Positions 21,719-28,375 of a stretch of DNA of 34,667 nucleotides are shown one piece after another. The DNA lies in contig NZ_JAINDZ010000044.1 in the NCBI RefSeq assembly GCF_019802345.1, positions 1-34,667 of the forward strand. Direction: 5' to 3'. This stretch comes from Methylosinus sp. Sm6. GTDB lineage: Bacteria > Pseudomonadota > Alphaproteobacteria > Rhizobiales > Beijerinckiaceae. The number at the start of each line of letters is the position of its first letter. Within the stretch, counting starts at the first letter, position 1. The notes beneath the pieces are model-generated. The model saw nothing but the letters and a program-made list of their open reading frames with translations. It had not been told where the DNA came from and ran no database searches. The position numbers and the translations under genes are program-made.

Positions 21719-22267
21719 TCACGGCGCCTCGATCACCGTCACCCCGGCGGCGCGCATTTCGGCGCGCGCATTCTCCCCGCCTTCCGGCGTGACCGGCCGC
21801 GTCGCGGCGCGCAGCACATGAGTGACGAAGCCGAGCCGCACGGCGTCGATGGCGCTCGCCTTCACGCAAACCTCCTCGGCGACGCCGACGATGAAGACGC
21901 GCTCGACCGCGCGTCGGCGCAGTTCTTCGGCGAGTCCGGTGGCGTCGAAAACGGACGCCTGCTCGCGTTCGGCTCGCCGCGCCTTGGCGACGAAGAGCGC
22001 GCCCTCGGGCAGCTTCAAGTCCGGGTGCAGATCCGCTCCGCGCGTGCCGCGCACGCAATGCTGCGGCCATCGCCCTCCGAAGGCGTGGAAGCTCTGGTGG
22101 TCCGGCGGATGCAGATCGCGCGAGGCGACGACCAGCGCGCCTCGCGCATGCGCCTCCTCGACGAGCGCATTGACGATCGGCACGATCTCGTCGGCGTGCG
22201 GAACCTCGAGCTTGCCGCCGGCGCAAAAGTCGCGTTGCAGATCGACGACCAGCAGCGCGTCGCTCAT
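21719..22267 (-). CDS. pncA: Nicotinamidase
   Basis: A 182-residue isochorismatase-fold amidase that hydrolyses nicotinamide to nicotinate for NAD salvage. The catalytic triad is D9 (VVDLQRDF), K95 (LFVAKARR) and C134 (GVAEEVCVKASAIDAV). The metal-binding segment is D51, H53 and H57 in RDLHPPDHQSFH. ATG 22267 gives the normal family N-terminus; upstream in-frame ATGs (to 22327) would add an unrelated tail reaching the divergent gene. The product feeds nicotinate phosphoribosyltransferase, encoded about 1 kb away on the same strand. Confidence 0.92.
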   Translation of the reverse strand: MSDALLVVDLQRDFCAGGKLEVPHADEIVPIVNALVEEAHARGALVVASRDLHPPDHQSFHAFGGRWPQHCVRGTRGADLHPDLKLPEGALFVAKARRAEREQASVFDATGLAEELRRRAVERVFIVGVAEEVCVKASAIDAVRLGFVTHVLRAATRPVTPEGGENARAEMRAAGVTVIEAP

Positions 22268-22325
22268 GCGCAGCCCTATCTTTTGTCTCGTCATCACTGC
22301 GTCTTCATGCGCCATCGTCGAATCC

Positions 22326-23444
22326 ATGGTCTCGAACCAGAGCAGAGCCGCGTCCGACGTCGGCGCCGCCGAGAAGGTGCGGCGGCTCGCGCAGCCTTGC
22401 GCCTATGCGCCCGCCCCCTCGCGCGTCGAGGTCATGGAGACACATATGTCGTATGTGTTCCTCGCGGGAGAGCGCGTCTACAAACTCAAGAAGCCCGTGC
22501 GCTTCGCCTTTCTCGATTTCTCGACCCTCGCCGCGCGCGAGGCCGATTGCCGTGAGGAGCTGCGGCTCAACCGCCGCCTCGCGCCCGGCGTCTATCTCGA
22601 CGTCGTTCCGCTGACGCTCTCGCCCGCAGGCGATTTGTCGCTGCGCGGCGACGGCGAGGTCGTCGACTGGCTCGTCGAGATGCGGCGCCTGCCGTCGGCG
22701 CTCATGCTCGACCGGCTCATAGCCGAAGGGACGCTCGAGCCGACCCGAATCGATGCGCTCGCAAAGACGCTGGCGAATTTTTACGCGCATGCCGAGCGCA
22801 CGGCGATGACGCCGCGAGATTACGTCGCTCGATTCTTTCGCGAGCACGACGAGACACGCCGCTTGTTGATGTGTGGATGCGCGCCTGAACGCGCGCGGTC
22901 CGGGAGCGCGTCGCTGGACCGCGAGCCGTCAGGCGCGCTCGTTCATGCGTCCGCTCTTCTCGATCGCCTCGAGGCGCTGCTCGTCGCGGCGACGCCCGCG
23001 CTCGAGGAGCGCGTGCGCGCGGGACGCGTGGTCGACGGACACGGCGATCTGCGCCCGGAGCACATTTGCTTTTGCGATCCGATCGCTATTTTCGATTGCC
23101 TCGAGTTCAATCGGCGATTGCGTCAGGTCGATCCCTTCGACGAGCTCGCCTTTCTGGACATTGAATGCGCGCTGCTCGGCGCGGACGACTTCGGCCCGCG
23201 ACTGATAGCGGAGACGGCGGCGCGTCTCGGCGATGCGCCATCGCCCGCGCTCGTCTCGCTCTATGGCGCCTGCCGCGCGGCGCTGCGCGCGCGGCTCGCG
23301 ATCGCGCATCTCCTCGATCCGCATCCGCGCCAGCCGGAGAAATGGGAGCCGCTCGCCGCGCGCTATCTGCGGCTCGCCGAAGCGCGGATGGCGGCGATCG
23401 GCCGAGACGAGGCCGCGAGCCGCGCGATCACTTCGCGCTCGTAG
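22326..23444 (+). CDS. COG2187-type aminoglycoside-phosphotransferase-like protein (stand-alone)
   Basis: A 372-residue protein of the kinase-like family related to aminoglycoside phosphotransferases. ETHMSYVFLAGERVYKLKKPVRFAFLDF (about residues 38-65) is the N-lobe signature, H239-GDL in VDGHGDLRPEHICF the catalytic loop, and IFDCLEFNRRLRQVDPFDELAFLDIE the conserved C-lobe segment. In many bacteria this domain is fused to a C-terminal ATP-binding (AAA/zeta-like) kinase domain, which is absent here. The substrate is unknown; antibiotic resistance should not be assumed. ATG 22326 lacks a strong ribosome binding site but keeps the family N-terminus. Its 3' end overlaps the convergent nicotinate phosphoribosyltransferase gene by 82 bases. 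Confidence 0.82.
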   Translation: MVSNQSRAASDVGAAEKVRRLAQPCAYAPAPSRVEVMETHMSYVFLAGERVYKLKKPVRFAFLDFSTLAAREADCREELRLNRRLAPGVYLDVVPLTLSPAGDLSLRGDGEVVDWLVEMRRLPSALMLDRLIAEGTLEPTRIDALAKTLANFYAHAERTAMTPRDYVARFFREHDETRRLLMCGCAPERARSGSASLDREPSGALVHASALLDRLEALLVAATPALEERVRAGRVVDGHGDLRPEHICFCDPIAIFDCLEFNRRLRQVDPFDELAFLDIECALLGADDFGPRLIAETAARLGDAPSPALVSLYGACRAALRARLAIAHLLDPHPRQPEKWEPLAARYLRLAEARMAAIGRDEAASRAITSRS

Positions 23445-24733
23445 CGCGCGAGTCCGGCGCTGATCGTGACCGGATAGGGGGAAGGCGTGAGCGCGCGGCA
23501 GCCGGCGGGCAAAGCGGCGATCGCTTCGCGCGCATGAGCGCGAATTTGCTCGAGACCGGGCTGCGGCTCCAGCGGCTCGCCGCCGCGCATGACGTCGCGC
23601 AGAAGAGCGACGCCGCTCGACATTTCGTCATGACGGGCGATCACGTCGAAGGCCGCGACGCCTTCGCGAAACCCGCGGAACACCTGCTTGCGTCCGGGCA
23701 GGCTGCGCTTGCCCGGCGACAGCTTCATGCGGCCGCGCCCTTCGAACTCCACGAGCTTGTATGCGATGTCGAGCGATGGCGCGTCGCCCGACACGGACAT
23801 GTCCGTGCCGACGCCGAACATGTCGATCGGCGCGGACGCCGCCGTCAGCCGATCGATGCGCGTCTCGTCGAGGCCCCCGCTCGCGACGATGCGCATATGC
23901 GCGAGGCCGGCGTCATCGAGCAGTCTGCGCGCGGCGCGCGACAAGGCGTCGAGATCGCCGAAGTCGAGACGAATCGCGCGCACGTCGAAATCCTCGCCCA
24001 TCTCCTCCGCGAGCGCGATCACTTCGCGCACGCCGGCGAGCGTGTCATAGGTGTCGACGAGCAAGGTCGTTTGCGGAAACAGGCGGGCGTAGGCGGCGAA
24101 TGCGTCGCGTTGCGTGTCGCAGGCTTCGACGAAGCTGTGGGCCATGGTGCCGGCCACGGGAATGCCATGCGCGCGGCCGGCGGCGAGCAGCGAGGTCGCC
24201 GCGACGCCGGCGATGTAGAAAGCGCGCGCGCCGTCCACCGCCGCGTCGAAGCCCTGCGCGCGGCGCGCGCCGAAATCGACGACCGCGCGGCCGCGCGCCG
24301 CCGCGACGATGCGCGCGGCTTTGGAGGCGAGCAGAGTCTGCAGGCCGATGCGATTGATGACGAGCGTCTCCAGCGCCTGCGCCTGCGCGATCGGCGCCGT
24401 CACCTCGATGATCGGCTCCTCGGCGAAGACCGGCGCGCCTTCTGGCACGGCGCGAATGTCGCCGGCAAAGCGCAGGCGCGCGAGGAAATTGAGAAAGTCG
24501 TGCGGGAATCCGAGCGAAGCGAGATAGCGCAGCTGCGCGTCCTCATAGCGAAAGCCGATGATGTCGCGCATCAGATCGGCGAGGCCGCAGGCGATGAGAA
24601 AATTGCGCGACGGCGGCAAATGGCGGACAAACAGCGAAAAGGTCGCGGGCCGTTCCGCCATGCCGAGCTCGAAATAGCCGCGCAGCATGGAGATCTCGTA
24701 GAGGTCGACGAACAGCGCGTCGGCGCGGGTCAT
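23363..24733 (-). CDS. pncB: Nicotinate phosphoribosyltransferase
   Basis: A 456-residue type II phosphoribosyltransferase that makes nicotinate mononucleotide from nicotinate and PRPP, usually with ATP hydrolysis. Visible motifs are DLYEISMLRGYFELGM at the start, VVDFGARRAQGFDAA (151-165), the phosphorylated/catalytic His199 in VAGTMAHSFVEACDT, LVDTYDTLAGV and FGVGTDM. Its ATG overlaps the TGA of the PRPP synthetase gene (ATGA), so translation is probably coupled and the PRPP producer and user are made together. The C-terminal about 27 residues are encoded opposite the end of the convergent gene and end in a basic AAIRASASRR tail. Confidence 0.93.
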   Translation of the reverse strand: MTRADALFVDLYEISMLRGYFELGMAERPATFSLFVRHLPPSRNFLIACGLADLMRDIIGFRYEDAQLRYLASLGFPHDFLNFLARLRFAGDIRAVPEGAPVFAEEPIIEVTAPIAQAQALETLVINRIGLQTLLASKAARIVAAARGRAVVDFGARRAQGFDAAVDGARAFYIAGVAATSLLAAGRAHGIPVAGTMAHSFVEACDTQRDAFAAYARLFPQTTLLVDTYDTLAGVREVIALAEEMGEDFDVRAIRLDFGDLDALSRAARRLLDDAGLAHMRIVASGGLDETRIDRLTAASAPIDMFGVGTDMSVSGDAPSLDIAYKLVEFEGRGRMKLSPGKRSLPGRKQVFRGFREGVAAFDVIARHDEMSSGVALLRDVMRGGEPLEPQPGLEQIRAHAREAIAALPAGCRALTPSPYPVTISAGLARYEREVIARLAASSRPIAAIRASASRR

Positions 24734-26226
24734 GGTCCTTGCTCCAGAAGATCGTCGATCGAGCCGCCGCTCTGCAGCCGCTCGATCGTGCGCGCGAGCA
24801 GCGGAGCGACGCCGAGAACCACGAGCCGCGCGCCGAGCGCGGCGACGGCGTCGGCGGGCGGCGGGACGGAATCGGTGACGACGATCTCGTCGACCTCGGC
24901 GTCGCGCAGCGTCGCGCCGCCGCGCGCGAATAGCCCGTGTGTCGCCGCGAGACAGACGCGGGCGGCGCCATTGGCGCGGCAAGCCGCGGCGGTGCGCGCC
25001 ATGGTGCCGCCGCTGCTGATGAGATCGTCGAGAATGACGACGGTTCGGCCGGCGACGTCGCCGGCGAATATCTCGCCCGTCACCTCGCCCATGCTGCGAT
25101 GCTTGTCCATGAAGCCTTTGGCGACCGCCCGCCCCAGCAGGGCCTCGAGGCGCTGTCGAAACAGCTCGGCGCGCTTCTCGCCGCCGAGATCGGGCGAGAC
25201 GACGGCGGCCGGCGCCTGGCCGATACGCTGAACGAAATGCCGCGCGAACAGCGCCTGAGCGTCGAGCGCTACCGCCTCGATGCGAAAGGCGTTCTCGAAG
25301 GCCGCGACATTATGCGCGTCGATGGCGACGACCGCGTCGACCCCGACGGCCTCGAGCAATTGCGCGACGGTGCGCGTCGCCACCGGATCGAGCGGCTTGG
25401 TTCTGCGATCCTTGCGCGCATAGCAGAGATAGGGCGCGACGGCCGTGATCTTCGCCGCGCCGGCGTCGCGCAAGGCGCCGATGAAGAGCAGGAGACGCAG
25501 CAGCTTGTCCGCGCCGCTCTCGCTCTGCTCGCCGTGCAGGCTCGAAATCACATAGACGCTGCGGCCGCGCACGCAGGCGAGCGGCCGGATCTTGCGCTCG
25601 CCGTCCTCGAATCTGCGCTCTTCATGCGGCGAAAGCGCGATTCCTATCTCGCGCGCGATGTTCTCGCCGATCTCGGCGCTGGAGCCGAGCGCGAACAGAG
25701 CGAGCGCCGACTCTGCGCGCGCGCGCGCCGGCCGCGCCGGCGCGGCGGAATCGAACGGGCTGACGGACAGCGCGCCGGCGACCGCGCCGAGCGTTCCGTC
25801 GGCGAGCGCGAGCGGCGCCGCGAGCAGCTCGACGCCGGCGATGTCGCGGCCATTCGCCACCAGCGTGAACTCGACGAGCGCCGGCTCGCCGACGCGCAGG
25901 ATTTCGTCGAAGAGGCGACGCAGCCGCACGGCGGCGCGCCGGTTGGCGCAGGCGCCGAGGCGCGCGCCCTCGCGCAGCGACACGAGCGGCGCCGACGCCG
26001 CCGCGCCGCGCAGCAGCTCATAGTCGCGCGCGCCCGCGAGCTTGCGGAAGGCGAAGCCGCCGCGCAGCGCCGAGACCATTTCGGCGAGCGGCGGCGCGAC
26101 GCCGCGCCGCATCGCGCGCCATTGCGCGAGCACGCGCTTCGACTCGGCGCCGACGGGCTGCGGCGCGAAATCGAGGCGCTCGAACAATCGGCGCAGAAAC
26201 GGCTGCGTCACGGCCAGCGTCGTCAT
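24730..26226 (-). CDS. prs: Ribose-phosphate pyrophosphokinase with an N-terminal PAS-like extension
   Basis: A 498-residue PRPP synthetase (ribose 5-phosphate + ATP to PRPP + AMP). Residues about 172-498 hold the enzyme: FEDGERKIRP, YARKDRRTKPLDPVATR (269-285), AIDAHNVAAFENAF, SPDLGGEKRAE (344-354) and the PRPP loop VVILDDLISSGGT (396-408). Standard enzymes are about 310 residues, so about 170 residues are added in front. This part (RVLAQWRAMRRGVAPPLAEM, then VEFTLVANGRDIAGVELLAAPL) resembles alphaproteobacterial PAS domains of the PAS_5 type, by eye only. It begins three bases after the stop of the alpha/beta hydrolase gene and overlaps the start of pncB. Having its own Prs suggests this is a second, specialised copy beside a housekeeping one elsewhere (inference). 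Confidence 0.9.
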   Translation of the reverse strand: MTTLAVTQPFLRRLFERLDFAPQPVGAESKRVLAQWRAMRRGVAPPLAEMVSALRGGFAFRKLAGARDYELLRGAAASAPLVSLREGARLGACANRRAAVRLRRLFDEILRVGEPALVEFTLVANGRDIAGVELLAAPLALADGTLGAVAGALSVSPFDSAAPARPARARAESALALFALGSSAEIGENIAREIGIALSPHEERRFEDGERKIRPLACVRGRSVYVISSLHGEQSESGADKLLRLLLFIGALRDAGAAKITAVAPYLCYARKDRRTKPLDPVATRTVAQLLEAVGVDAVVAIDAHNVAAFENAFRIEAVALDAQALFARHFVQRIGQAPAAVVSPDLGGEKRAELFRQRLEALLGRAVAKGFMDKHRSMGEVTGEIFAGDVAGRTVVILDDLISSGGTMARTAAACRANGAARVCLAATHGLFARGGATLRDAEVDEIVVTDSVPPPADAVAALGARLVVLGVAPLLARTIERLQSGGSIDDLLEQGP

Positions 26227-26229
26227 GCT

Positions 26230-26880
26230 TCAGCCCTCGCCGTGTCGCGGCAGCTTCGCCGCGAACCAATCGGCCGCCAGCTCGACGACGCGCTCCAGCG
26301 TCCCGGGCTCCTCGAACAAATGCGTCGCTCCCGGCACGACGTCGAGCCGCGATTGGGTCAGCAGCCGCTGCGATTCTCGATTCAGCTCTAATACTTCGTA
26401 ATCGAGCGCGCCGACGATCAGCAGCGTCGGCGCGCCGACGCGGCCGAGCGCGTCGCCGGCGAGATCCGGGCGCCCGCCGCGCGAGACCACGGCGCGGACT
26501 CGTTCCGGACATTGCGCGGCGGCGACCAGCGCCGCGGCCGCGCCCGTGCTGGCGCCGAAGAGGCCGATCGGAAGCTGCTGGAGCGCGGGCTCGGCGGCGG
26601 CCCAGTCGATCGCCTCGACCACGCGCGCGGCGAGCAGCGGAATGTCGAACACATTGCGCCGATCGCGCGCTTCGTTGCGCGTGAGCAGGTCCATGAGCAG
26701 CGTCGCAAGGCCGCGCGCCAACAGCGCTTCGGCCACGAAGGCGTTGCGCGGGCTGTAGCGTGACGAGCCGCTGCCATGCGCGAACAGCACGAGGCCAATG
26801 GGATTGTCGGGAATTTCCAGCGCGCCGCCGAGGCGGCGCGAGCCGACGGCGACCTCCGATCTGCGAACCAGCGTCGTCAT
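26230..26880 (-). CDS. Dienelactone-hydrolase-like alpha/beta hydrolase
   Basis: A 216-residue alpha/beta hydrolase. The oxyanion segment is LFAHGSGSSRYSPRN (33-47), nucleophile S111 lies in GLFGASTGAAAA, and the triad is completed by D160 (VGALDYEVLEL) and H187 (PGATHLFEEPG). Family members near phosphoribosyltransferase genes are common, but the substrate is not known. AGAGGG lies about eight bases before the ATG. It is the first gene of a tight operon with prs and pncB and is divergent from the hibernation-factor gene. Confidence 0.88.
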   Translation of the reverse strand: MTTLVRRSEVAVGSRRLGGALEIPDNPIGLVLFAHGSGSSRYSPRNAFVAEALLARGLATLLMDLLTRNEARDRRNVFDIPLLAARVVEAIDWAAAEPALQQLPIGLFGASTGAAAALVAAAQCPERVRAVVSRGGRPDLAGDALGRVGAPTLLIVGALDYEVLELNRESQRLLTQSRLDVVPGATHLFEEPGTLERVVELAADWFAAKLPRHGEG

Positions 26881-26961
26881 GGCGCACCCTCTCGCTCGCG
26901 GTGTCGCAGCGGCGTCGCCCGCTGCGAGGCGCCCCTCGCCTGCCCTATCTATCTATTGCGC

Positions 26962-26974
26962 CGTTCCCGGAACG
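26962..26974. promoter_or_regulatory. Short palindrome in the divergent hydrolase/hibernation-factor region
   Basis: CGTTCC-C-GGAACG is a perfect inverted repeat in the 214-base divergent gap 26881-27094. It might be an operator serving either side. No FNR/FixK-type TTGAT-N4-ATCAA site was found in this gap. Confidence 0.3.
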
Positions 26975-27094
26975 ACGCTGGTTTTTTGCCGGACGGCGCG
27001 CCCGACGGCCCGCGGTCCGAGCGCGTCCTCGACCGCGGGCCTTCGGGCTCGCTCTCCCGAGCGCTGTCGAAGCGCCAACGCGAAAGGCCTGCCG

Positions 27095-27661
27095 ATGCAG
27101 ACGACGCCGGAAATCGACTTTCAGGGAATGGAGGCGACGCCGCGCGCGCGGTCGCGCATCGAGCGTCACATCGACCAATTGGAGACGCGCTTCGGTCGCG
27201 TCACCGCCTGCCGCGTGGTGGTGAAGGCGCCGGGCGGGCGCCATCGCACCGGCGGGCTCTATGAGGTGAACATTCGCCTCGCCCTGCCCGACGGGCGCGA
27301 AGCGGTGGTCGAGCGCACGCCTCCGGAGGACGAGCGTTTCCAGGATTTCGACTTCGCGCTCGACGACGCCTTCAAGCGCGCGCGCCGGCGCCTGCAGGAC
27401 CAGGTCCGCCGCATGGAGGGACATGTCAAGCAGCACGCCGAGCCGGTCGGCGGCGTGGTGCGGCGGCTGATGCGCGAGGACGGCTATGGCTTCCTCGAGG
27501 GCGCCAATGGACGCGAGCTCTATTTCAATCGCAACAGCGTGGAAGGCAACGGCTTCGACCGGCTCGAGCCCGGCGACCGCGTCGCCTATCGCGAGGAGGA
27601 GGCCGACGACGGGCCGCAGGCGAGCGCGGTGAGGCCGCTCGGCGAACGGGCGCCATTATGA
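27095..27661 (+). CDS. Ribosome hibernation factor (HPF/RaiA) fused to a cold-shock domain
   Basis: A 188-residue fusion. Residues 1-110 form an HPF/RaiA domain (IDFQGMEATPRARSRIERHI, a beta-rich core, and a basic helix DDAFKRARRRLQDQVRRM), which binds the 30S decoding centre in resting cells. Residues 119-181 form a cold-shock nucleic-acid-binding domain (GYGFLEGANGRELYFNRNSV, then FDRLEPGDRVAYREEE and GPQASAVRPLG). ATG 27095 is chosen for AAAGG about eight bases upstream and for the family start. Such fusions occur in other alphaproteobacteria. It differs from the HPF gene usually found next to rpoN. It heads a plus-strand group with a phosphoribosyltransferase and alanine dehydrogenase. 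Confidence 0.9.
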   Translation: MQTTPEIDFQGMEATPRARSRIERHIDQLETRFGRVTACRVVVKAPGGRHRTGGLYEVNIRLALPDGREAVVERTPPEDERFQDFDFALDDAFKRARRRLQDQVRRMEGHVKQHAEPVGGVVRRLMREDGYGFLEGANGRELYFNRNSVEGNGFDRLEPGDRVAYREEEADDGPQASAVRPLGERAPL

Positions 27662-27727
27662 GGCGCCGCGCCTCGCAAAGTCGCGCGCCGCGCCTATATC
27701 GAAAGCGTCGTGCGAGGATTTGCCGCC

Positions 27728-28375
27728 ATGCCGTTTCGTGACCGAACCGACGCCGGACGCCGCCTCGCCGACGCGCTCTCCCGTCGCGAAGGCGAGGAGG
27801 CGGTGGTGTTCGCGCTGCCGCGCGGCGGCGCGCCGGTCGCCGCCGAGATCGCCGAGCGCCTGAACGCGCCGCTCGACCTCGTTCTGGTGCGCAAGATCGG
27901 CGTTCCTTTCCAGCCCGAGCTCGCAATGGGCGCAGTCGCCGATGGCGGCGCGCCGGTCGTCGTGCGCAACGAGGATGTGATCGCGCTCGCCGATGTCGGC
28001 CCCTCCGCCTTCGACGCCATCTGCGCGCGCGAGCAGGCCGAGATCGAGCGCCGCAGGAAGCTCTATCTCGGCGGGCGCTCGCGCCCCGACGCCGCCGGAA
28101 GGCTGGCGATCGTCGTCGACGACGGCGTCGCCACCGGCGCCACCACGCGCGCCGCGCTGCGCGCCGTGCGGGCGTTGCGGCCGAAAAAGCTGATCCTCGC
28201 CGTTCCCGTCGCGCCGACGGAGGCGCTCGAAGCGTTGCAGAAAGAGGCCGACGAGATCGTCTGCCTCGAGCATTATCGCGATTTCGGCGCGATCGGATTT
28301 TTTTATGCGGATTTTCGCCAGATCGACGACGAGGAGGTGATCGCCATTCTCGATCGCTTCACGCCGCGACAGTGA
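27728..28375 (+). CDS. Phosphoribosyltransferase-domain protein
   Basis: A 215-residue type I phosphoribosyltransferase-like protein. The PRPP-binding loop is VVDDGVATGAT (129-139); ALPRGGAPVAAEIAERL (29-45) and VRKIGVPFQPELAMGAV (54-70) are typical of the stand-alone family often found beside dienelactone hydrolases and stress genes. Its base substrate is unknown. ATG 27728 has AGGA about ten bases upstream; an in-frame GTG at 27710 would add six residues. It ends 13 bases before the alanine dehydrogenase gene, so both are probably co-transcribed. Confidence 0.87.
   Translation: MPFRDRTDAGRRLADALSRREGEEAVVFALPRGGAPVAAEIAERLNAPLDLVLVRKIGVPFQPELAMGAVADGGAPVVVRNEDVIALADVGPSAFDAICAREQAEIERRRKLYLGGRSRPDAAGRLAIVVDDGVATGATTRAALRAVRALRPKKLILAVPVAPTEALEALQKEADEIVCLEHYRDFGAIGFFYADFRQIDDEEVIAILDRFTPRQ

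Follow-up and report, generated by a model that had tools for sequence, protein, structure and literature searches.

In the window, a stretch of 34,667 nucleotides from the methane-oxidising bacterium Methylosinus sp. Sm6, a divergent accessory PRPP synthase paralogue, named Prs2 here, carries an N-terminal domain that is a relative of PAS_5 (PF07310), as seen from profile, structure and orthologue evidence. This architecture also occurs in other Hyphomicrobiales, and the same domain, referred to as N-PAS, is fused to Prs2 in some genomes and encoded as a free protein, often near Prs2, in others, which corresponds to a Rosetta-stone pattern. Because the domain is a separate protein in relatives, often encoded near the enzyme, a dedicated control of PRPP supply is suggested. 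The reading favoured here, with a likelihood somewhat better than even, is that of a dedicated PAS_5-type regulator, acting in cis or in trans, of an accessory PRPP synthase linked to stress and NAD salvage.

The synthesis of purines, pyrimidines, histidine, tryptophan and NAD draws on PRPP. In the available parts of the literature, PRPP synthases are described as being controlled by nucleotides, phosphate and filament formation, and a dedicated PAS regulator, fused and free, would, if true, add a new input to the supply of PRPP. Likewise, PAS_5 proteins would gain a metabolic enzyme as a probable target; MopJ is the only studied PAS_5 protein found in the accessible text of the sources. No description of a PAS-PRPP synthase was found in a search of the open-licence literature, as judged from listings.

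The fused reading frame and its N-terminal domain

The fused gene is located at positions 24730..26226 on the reverse strand and forms one intact ORF of 498 codons with zero internal stops. Residues 1-157 (25756..26226, reverse strand) comprise the PAS_5-like domain, in which a conserved leader (MTTLA...RLFERLDFAP) precedes the PAS core. It is followed by a linker of residues 158-174 (25705..25755, reverse strand), whose pLDDT is below 50 at residues 161-172, and by the catalytic unit of Prs2, residues 175-498 plus the stop codon (24730..25704, reverse strand), as supported by Pfam, NCBIfam and structural matches in the PDB. A possible ribosome-binding site, GAGGG (26234..26238, reverse strand), was recognized from the sequence 7 nt 5′ of the ATG, and the ATG itself sits 3 nt past the stop codon of the gene directly upstream, which encodes an alpha/beta hydrolase (26230..26880, reverse strand; Abhydrolase_1, E 1.9e-7).

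A true start near residue 165, raised in the preliminary description as a counter-finding, would leave the N-terminus untranslated or in a separate frame. Canonical PRPP synthases do begin near this position, and the start codons of unfused Prs2 relatives are located at about 155-177 (query numbering). However, residues 123-190 of the window ORF contain no ATG, GTG or TTG codon, and the start codon of the fused gene is aligned at residue 1 in 22/22 orthologues (21 ATG, 1 GTG). In addition, purifying selection on the fused N-terminus (dN < dS in 9/9 pairs), the sequence resembling a ribosome-binding site and the full-length fused CDS annotated in two Rhizobium records argue against such an artefact, which is regarded as extremely improbable. 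With a conserved start codon at residue 1 and none at residues 123-190 in the window, a mis-called start was rejected.

Residues 1-170 of the window protein alone have no match in Pfam, so that the PAS_5 identity is not readable from this protein by itself. Among the N-termini of the orthologues, 13 of 22 match PAS_5 at E values up to 10 (best 1.4e-8), and of eight more domains, six free and two fused, six match at E values up to 1. The Pfam gathering score of PF07310 (22 bits) is passed by two of these eight (L117 with 22.5 bits and L123 with 24.1 bits), as well as by the fused protein of a congener (G105), which reached 35.2 bits in a whole-genome search. The comparison of the N-terminal domain profile with PAS_5 by hhalign resulted in 97.9% (E 4.8e-13, 129 columns), the controls giving 0.6% for the reversed profile and 0.2% for a Prs profile. 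In a tree, N-PAS forms a single clade (100/100) that is separate from 12 ordinary PAS_5 domains.

For the N-terminal domain of ~160 residues, AlphaFold2 predicts a PAS-like fold, in which the modelled order of strands and helices is that of PAS domains and a structural match to these is found. The Foldseek matches of the domain are weak (best E 9.5e-3). Cache-type sensor domains appear in the lower rows of the structural list as well, so that PAS would not be singled out by the fold match on its own. When the N-terminal profile was searched against PDB sequences, two matches at chance level resulted (best E 0.095), and the two-domain model has a pTM of 0.62 with a linker of low confidence. The resemblance to PAS_5 proposed in the preliminary description is thus borne out by the hhalign result, the predicted fold and the 13 orthologues, and the extension is predicted to be folded rather than disordered. 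PMC5874634 was dropped as a source on PAS_5, since the term there is the name of a plasmid.

The catalytic unit of Prs2

In Pfam, the window protein is matched by Pribosyltran_N (residues 176-295), Pribosyltran (316-442) and Pribosyl_synth (388-493), and in NCBIfam by TIGR01251 at residues 177-494 with 225.8 bits (cut-off 113). The best PDB matches of the full model are PRPP synthetases (7pn0, E 1.2e-26). Hence Pfam, NCBIfam, AlphaFold2 and the orthologues agree with the initial view of PRPP synthetase motifs placed C-terminally of an extra folded N-terminus. A canonical Prs (498.2 bits, cut-off 297) is encoded elsewhere in the genome, and Prs2 is therefore free to be conditional.

The E. coli Prs (class I, 7xmu) has the same catalytic fold and most of the compared active-site residues at ~32% identity in a structural match and, unlike the fused Prs2, is devoid of a PAS domain. 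The catalytic flexible loop K375-x-R377 (25096..25104, reverse strand) is aligned to E. coli K194/R196, the equivalents of which are kept in 24/24 fused and 71/71 other Prs2. In the PRPP/R5P loop ILDDLISSGGTM (25000..25035, reverse strand), D220 and D221 are kept in the same two sets of sequences, and D224, a Ser in the window, is replaced in all of them. Prs2 retains D170, D220, D221, K194 and R196 (numbered as in E. coli, with K194 and R196 assigned by position) and has the Prs fold and the active-site residues of a PRPP synthase, D224 excepted.

The loss of D224 in all 95 Prs2 examined and the score of the window protein for PRK01259 (212.9 bits), which is under the cut-off of 297, could also indicate that PRPP synthesis is not the main function of Prs2, which would instead have another diphosphotransfer or a regulatory role controlled by the PAS domain. 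Yet the remaining compared catalytic residues are kept or nearly so, and the same Ser is present in the solved ribose-phosphate pyrophosphokinases 3mbi and 3lpn, which contain the loop DDIISTGGT; this explanation is considered very improbable. Both structures, presumably of archaeal origin, belong to the class III PRPP synthases, whose loop DDxISxGGT has Ser for Asp as in Prs2. They differ from Prs2 in having chains of 284-287 residues and no PAS domain, and E. coli Prs is the better-scoring match to Prs2 when the whole domain is compared. As for the class III criteria (tetrameric, Pi-activated, no ADP allostery), the agreement with Prs2 consists of the loop residue only. Class III enzymes are described as being without an allosteric mechanism in the available part of PMC9232217.

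The residues of allosteric site 2 in E. coli Prs, R102, E133, F147, S149 and R178, were taken from the accessible text of the same source and correspond to K, A, D, Q and E in the window, so that 0/5 are kept. At nine positions of the ADP site 1, R49, A82 and S308 are kept, and N47, S81, Q136, D144, N145 and F313 are replaced; these positions were placed by our own motif reading of the list in PMC3380012, leaving out the site 1 loop residues. Thus, in contrast to the E. coli enzyme, which has the residues of both sites, the window Prs2 appears by sequence to be devoid of the class I set of ADP/Pi allosteric-site residues.

Distribution and genomic context

The two-domain architecture first seen in the window recurs in other genomes, the fusion being present in 20 of the 199 sampled genomes of the family, in two further families and on three Rhizobium plasmids. 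Eight sampled genomes encode the same PAS subfamily without the fusion, as a small protein of its own that is about 160-170 residues long according to the open reading frames. All eight have Prs2, located less than 5 kb away in six. The free gene adjoins Prs2 in G351 and G324 and is no more than 5 kb away in G564, G419 and G185; in G144 and G159, it is located on a different contig from the intact Prs2, with only Prs2 fragments nearby.

In the family sample, 23 genomes contain N-PAS, all of them among the 34 of 199 with Prs2, and the other 11 of these 34, all fully scored, have Prs2 without such a PAS domain. In the order sample, Prs2 was found in 22 of 397 genomes, 13 of them without such a PAS domain, and all nine genomes with a strong N-PAS have Prs2 (hypergeometric 8e-13, and 3e-7 for the five free ones, genome relatedness being uncorrected). 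N-PAS was seen without Prs2 in no sampled genome.

Within the fused clade, the PAS domain was apparently lost three or four times and is therefore dispensable for Prs2. As a possible interface, Prs2 columns were sought that are at least 90% conserved in the 24 fused rows and altered in two or more of three loss lineages, and none was found. The apparent losses, and an N-terminus evolving faster than the enzyme (30-77% vs 49-82% identity to the window protein in 21 orthologues), would fit a nearly neutral fusion, in which a PAS gene joined Prs2 once and was carried along without effect. This appears improbable, however, given that dN stays below dS in every pair, that a helix motif (described below) is common to the fused and free forms, that in the samples the subfamily never occurred without Prs2, and that the fusion persists across several families.

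In the window, the prs stop codon overlaps the start codon of a nicotinate phosphoribosyltransferase gene (23363..24733, reverse strand; NF006696, 566.7 bits, cut-off 503) as ATGA. The coupling to a PRPP-consuming NAD-salvage enzyme claimed in the preliminary description therefore holds here, but this gene was found within the examined flank in only four of the 11 other fused loci analyzed for neighbours. An isochorismatase-family hydrolase (21719..22327, reverse strand; PF00857, E 1.4e-35) is possibly a nicotinamidase. The uncharacterised kinase-like gene at 22428..23444 (forward strand), which we take to be aminoglycoside-phosphotransferase-like, has no match in Pfam at 1e-5 or in NCBIfam at 0.01, and a homologue is located near Prs2 in 62/69 loci. 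On the forward strand, a protein with an S30AE (ribosome hibernation-type) and a cold-shock domain (27095..27661; PF02482, PF00313) and a phosphoribosyltransferase-family protein (27710..28375; PF00156, E 1.8e-15) are encoded, the latter with a homologue in 38/69 Prs2 loci.

Prs2 neighbourhoods of some relatives contain GroEL/Cpn60, Hsp20, USP, ppsA or pncB, and these gene kinds resemble those of the low-oxygen-activated (lxa) locus of Burkholderia. For this stress-type cluster, the available text names a heat-shock protein along with universal stress proteins, as well as pncB and ppsA in the case of B. contaminans (PMC4981469, PMC6127331, PMC9104464). In contrast to the Prs2 locus, no PRPP synthase was found for lxa by a term search of the main text of these papers. 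A further difference is that no FNR-type box is located near the window operon: two matches with two mismatches were found in the window vs 4.27 expected by chance, neither of them near the operon. The motif TTG-N8-CAA is present neither at 26850-27110 of the window nor in the scanned stretches of five relatives.

Possible function of the PAS module

The subfamily alignment revealed the motif RxAxRLRRL (R97, A99, R101-L105) in the F-helix (residues 96-112; 25891..25941, reverse strand), which is kept in 29-31 of the 31 fused and free sequences and not in the 12 ordinary PAS_5. For cofactor-binding PAS domains, a heme-His and a FAD-Trp rule are given in the available part of PMC10468136. The N-terminal domain in the window has no His and one Cys, and the best columns among the 31 sequences reach 10/31 for His and 9/31 for Cys. 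W36, the only conserved Trp of the domain, is located outside the F-helix and is also found in ordinary PAS_5. A conserved Cys marks LOV domains. As none of these three marker residues (ligand His, F-helix Trp, LOV Cys) is conserved, cofactor binding of the heme, FAD or LOV type was rejected.

PAS domains commonly serve as sensors, and the preliminary description proposed that a ligand, redox state or another signal would gate PRPP supply through this domain. It is nevertheless conceivable, though rather unlikely, that N-PAS senses nothing and is a docking or oligomerisation module holding Prs2 by a partner (a neighbouring enzyme, the kinase-like protein or another Prs2 oligomer), with PRPP being channelled and not gated. 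This would agree with the subfamily-specific conservation of the F-helix arginines and the leader, the lack of a conserved His or Cys, a lone conserved Trp shared with ordinary PAS_5 and the high conservation of the kinase-like neighbour gene. Moreover, PAS domains may promote protein-protein interactions (PMC10468136, available part), and MopJ interacts with DivJ (PMC4432633, available part).

In the favoured mechanism of dedicated control, Prs2 would be an accessory PRPP synthase permanently fused to its own PAS_5-type regulatory partner, which is predicted to be tethered through a flexible linker. The PAS module, triggered by binding of a small anionic ligand or a protein partner, would most likely modulate the activity or assembly of Prs2 via the arginine-rich face of the F-helix. 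Because Prs2 is without the site 2 residues and six of the nine site 1 residues, the PAS module may take over the ADP/phosphate control that the housekeeping enzyme has. The PRPP produced would be supplied to local users, namely the nicotinate phosphoribosyltransferase and, perhaps, another protein of the phosphoribosyltransferase type, in what is, from its gene content, probably a stress-type gene cluster. The wider proposal of a further, signal-gated control of PRPP synthases, in which a PAS_5 subfamily in trans or in cis replaces ADP allostery and tunes PRPP for NAD salvage under stress, is put forward only tentatively. The fused and free pairs make this question approachable with purified proteins.

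A known system for comparison is MopJ of Caulobacter crescentus, a single-domain PAS_5 protein of 165 residues, which is induced by (p)ppGpp and in stationary phase (PMC4432633, available part). Instead of a metabolic enzyme, MopJ has a cell-cycle factor as its partner, the DivJ kinase, and no fusion is mentioned in this part of the source. Like the free N-PAS, MopJ has a PAS_5 domain and the same size, and is described there as a partner-binding protein.

An accessory PRPP synthase with a PAS_5-type N-terminal domain

The gene at 24730-26226 on the reverse strand of the window comprises 498 codons without an internal stop, and a Pfam search placed three PRPP-synthase domains within residues 176-493 of its product. 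The protein scores 225.8 bits on the NCBIfam model TIGR01251 (cut-off 113) and 212.9 bits on the narrower model PRK01259, below the cut-off of 297. A second gene of the same genome (G000:C89:13641-14579) encodes the canonical Prs, which reaches 498.2 bits on PRK01259 and is 35% identical to the window protein; the window gene, here termed Prs2, is therefore an accessory paralogue. Its nearest named relatives, from Methylosinus and other Methylocystaceae, are about 70% identical.

The preliminary description took the N-terminal extension for a PAS-like domain, with a mis-called start as the alternative. The extension is real and the gene starts at residue 1. The ATG follows the stop codon of the upstream alpha/beta hydrolase gene by 3 nt and is preceded by GAGGG 7 nt upstream, and residues 123-190 contain no ATG, GTG or TTG. 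In 22 of 22 orthologues, for each of which the start codon nearest to that of the window gene was picked, residue 1 is aligned to a start codon (21 ATG, 1 GTG), directly followed by a conserved leader, MTTLA...RLFERLDFAP. Furthermore, dN is lower than dS in the N-terminal region of all nine close pairs examined, with ratios of about 0.07-0.44. At the other end of the gene, the prs stop overlaps the start of the nicotinate phosphoribosyltransferase (NAPRTase) gene in an ATGA.

The comparison with E. coli Prs (its numbering is used here) included 24 fused and 71 other Prs2. D170, D220, D221, K194 and R196 are kept in all of them and T228 in 23 of the fused and all 71 others, whereas D224 is replaced in 95 of 95; the window protein carries Ser at this position, like the solved structures 3mbi and 3lpn. 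At the allosteric site 2 residues named in PMC9232217 (R102, E133, F147, S149, R178), the window protein has K, A, D, Q and E. Since three of these five residues are different in the canonical Prs of the same genome as well, site 2 is no clean class mark. For site 1, nine positions from the residue list in PMC3380012 were placed by motif, excluding the loop part of the site: R49, A82 and S308 are kept in the window protein and N47, S81, Q136, D144, N145 and F313 are not, whereas all nine are kept in the canonical Prs. Judged from these residue changes at both sites, class I control is probably altered in Prs2.

Distribution of fused and free N-PAS genes

The PAS_5-type subfamily of the extension (N-PAS) is found fused to Prs2 and also as a free gene of about 160-170 codons, with start codons assigned by hand. 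It co-occurs with Prs2 without exception in the samples. In the family, order and class samples, scoring covered only the 9 or 18 top first-look candidates of each genome, and a weak free copy may therefore have escaped. Of the 199 genomes in the family sample, 34 have a match to the protein at E <=1e-60. N-PAS was detected at E <=1e-12 in at least 23 genomes, all 23 among these 34, and is fused in 20 and free in three (G144, G159, G185). With every candidate scored, the remaining 11 of the 34 gave no N-PAS match better than E 9e-10.

In the order sample, at least 36 of 397 genomes match the N-PAS profile at E <=1e-4. Eight matches are strong, reaching E 2.6e-25 or better and beginning at profile position 1; G247, where the gene is broken in two, is the ninth N-PAS genome. 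The remaining 27 (E 7e-14 to 9e-5, beginning at profile position 10 or later) were treated as ordinary PAS_5. Prs2 was found at E <=1e-70 in 22 genomes, including all nine with N-PAS (hypergeometric 8e-13) and thus all five with a free N-PAS (3e-7), both values ignoring kinship between genomes. Among the best candidates of the 385 class-sample genomes, a match stronger than E 1e-13 occurred only in the window's own genome.

The two-domain architecture was thus found in 20 of 199 family genomes, and also in families f18 and f29 (G435, G382) and on three Rhizobium plasmids, from R. daejeonense, R. binae and Rhizobium sp. WYJ-E13. In two of the three plasmid records the gene is annotated simply as a ribose-phosphate diphosphokinase (WP_206110923.1, WP_168302266.1), whereas the third record lists no genes. 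A separate species-genome collection, scanned with a bias from the query peptides, yielded 54 loci, 6 of them with the fusion.

Free N-PAS adjoins Prs2 in divergent orientation in G351 and G324. Its distance from Prs2 is 4.1 kb in G564, 1.2 kb in G185 and 2.2 kb in G419, where it stands immediately before an alpha/beta hydrolase homologue. In G247 it starts 0.1 kb beyond Prs2, and its two pieces (L122 4014-8603) are separated by roughly 3.7 kb, in which a transposase-like frame was read by eye. In G144 and G159 the free gene is not on the contig of the intact Prs2. C-terminal Prs2 fragments lie about 2.6 kb from it (L158 459-884, L159 8995-9418), and the intact Prs2 of G159 is apparently on Methylocella tundrae plasmid p1, judged by equal coordinates.

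Phylogeny and shared motif

In a tree of 43 domains, the 24 fused and 7 free N-PAS form one clade (100/100), with the 12 ordinary PAS_5 outside it. The free forms cluster together (96/95), and the fused forms stand as a single clade beside them in only 14% of 200 bootstrap trees; this tree therefore does not settle fusion versus fission. On the Prs2 tree, fused genes fall into one clade (24 of 30 rows fused, SH-aLRT 93), also in a second version with five plasmid genes added and 36 mostly distant rows omitted (27 of 34 rows, 100/97), and the Prs2 of free-form genomes lie outside it. The fewest changes on the two Prs2 trees, 4 and 5, are consistent with a single gain of the fusion and its loss on three or four occasions, though it may have been gained more often.

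The F-helix residues R97, A99, R101, L102, R103, R104 and L105 are common to fused and free forms, occurring in 29-31 of 31 sequences, and the 12 ordinary PAS_5 do not preserve this pattern. From the co-occurrence, the shared motif and the purifying selection, we infer that the PAS protein regulates Prs2; the main rival reading is a scaffold without a sensing role. The domain architecture is new, and through the PAS protein a known enzyme would probably be subject to a new control input; the finding is not a new kind of system. No earlier account of a PAS-PRPP synthase was found in the open-licence literature searched.

Gene neighbourhood of Prs2

Neighbours were counted in 69 Prs2 loci with flanks, of which L050/L118 is counted twice and some are short. 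Homologues of a kinase-like gene (22428-23444, forward strand; left unnamed by Pfam and NCBIfam under the limits applied) occur in 62 loci, which makes it the most constant neighbour, commoner than NAPRTase (22); as a guess, its product may supply or use phosphorylated ribose. A phosphoribosyltransferase-family homologue is present in 38 loci, one of the alpha/beta hydrolase in 22, and one of the ribosome-hibernation-type S30AE protein, whose window copy (27095-27661, forward strand) has a C-terminal cold-shock domain, in 21. Single relatives have FtsH, Hsp20, Lon, Cpn60/GroEL, universal stress protein, ppsA or NAD+ synthase as neighbours.

This gene content resembles the low-oxygen-activated locus of Burkholderia; in B. 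contaminans, pncB and ppsA belong to that locus according to PMC4981469. A search for an FNR-type site around the window operon found none. On Methylocella tundrae plasmid p1 (L171 5838-8942), an NAD+ synthase gene is directly followed by Prs2, which is a further connection between Prs2 and NAD synthesis. On Rhizobium and Sinorhizobium plasmids, Prs2 has genes for GroEL, Hsp20, universal stress proteins or ppsA in its vicinity (L168 10732-15017; L169 5678-11920; L172 8001-12930), and these loci resemble a portable stress island.
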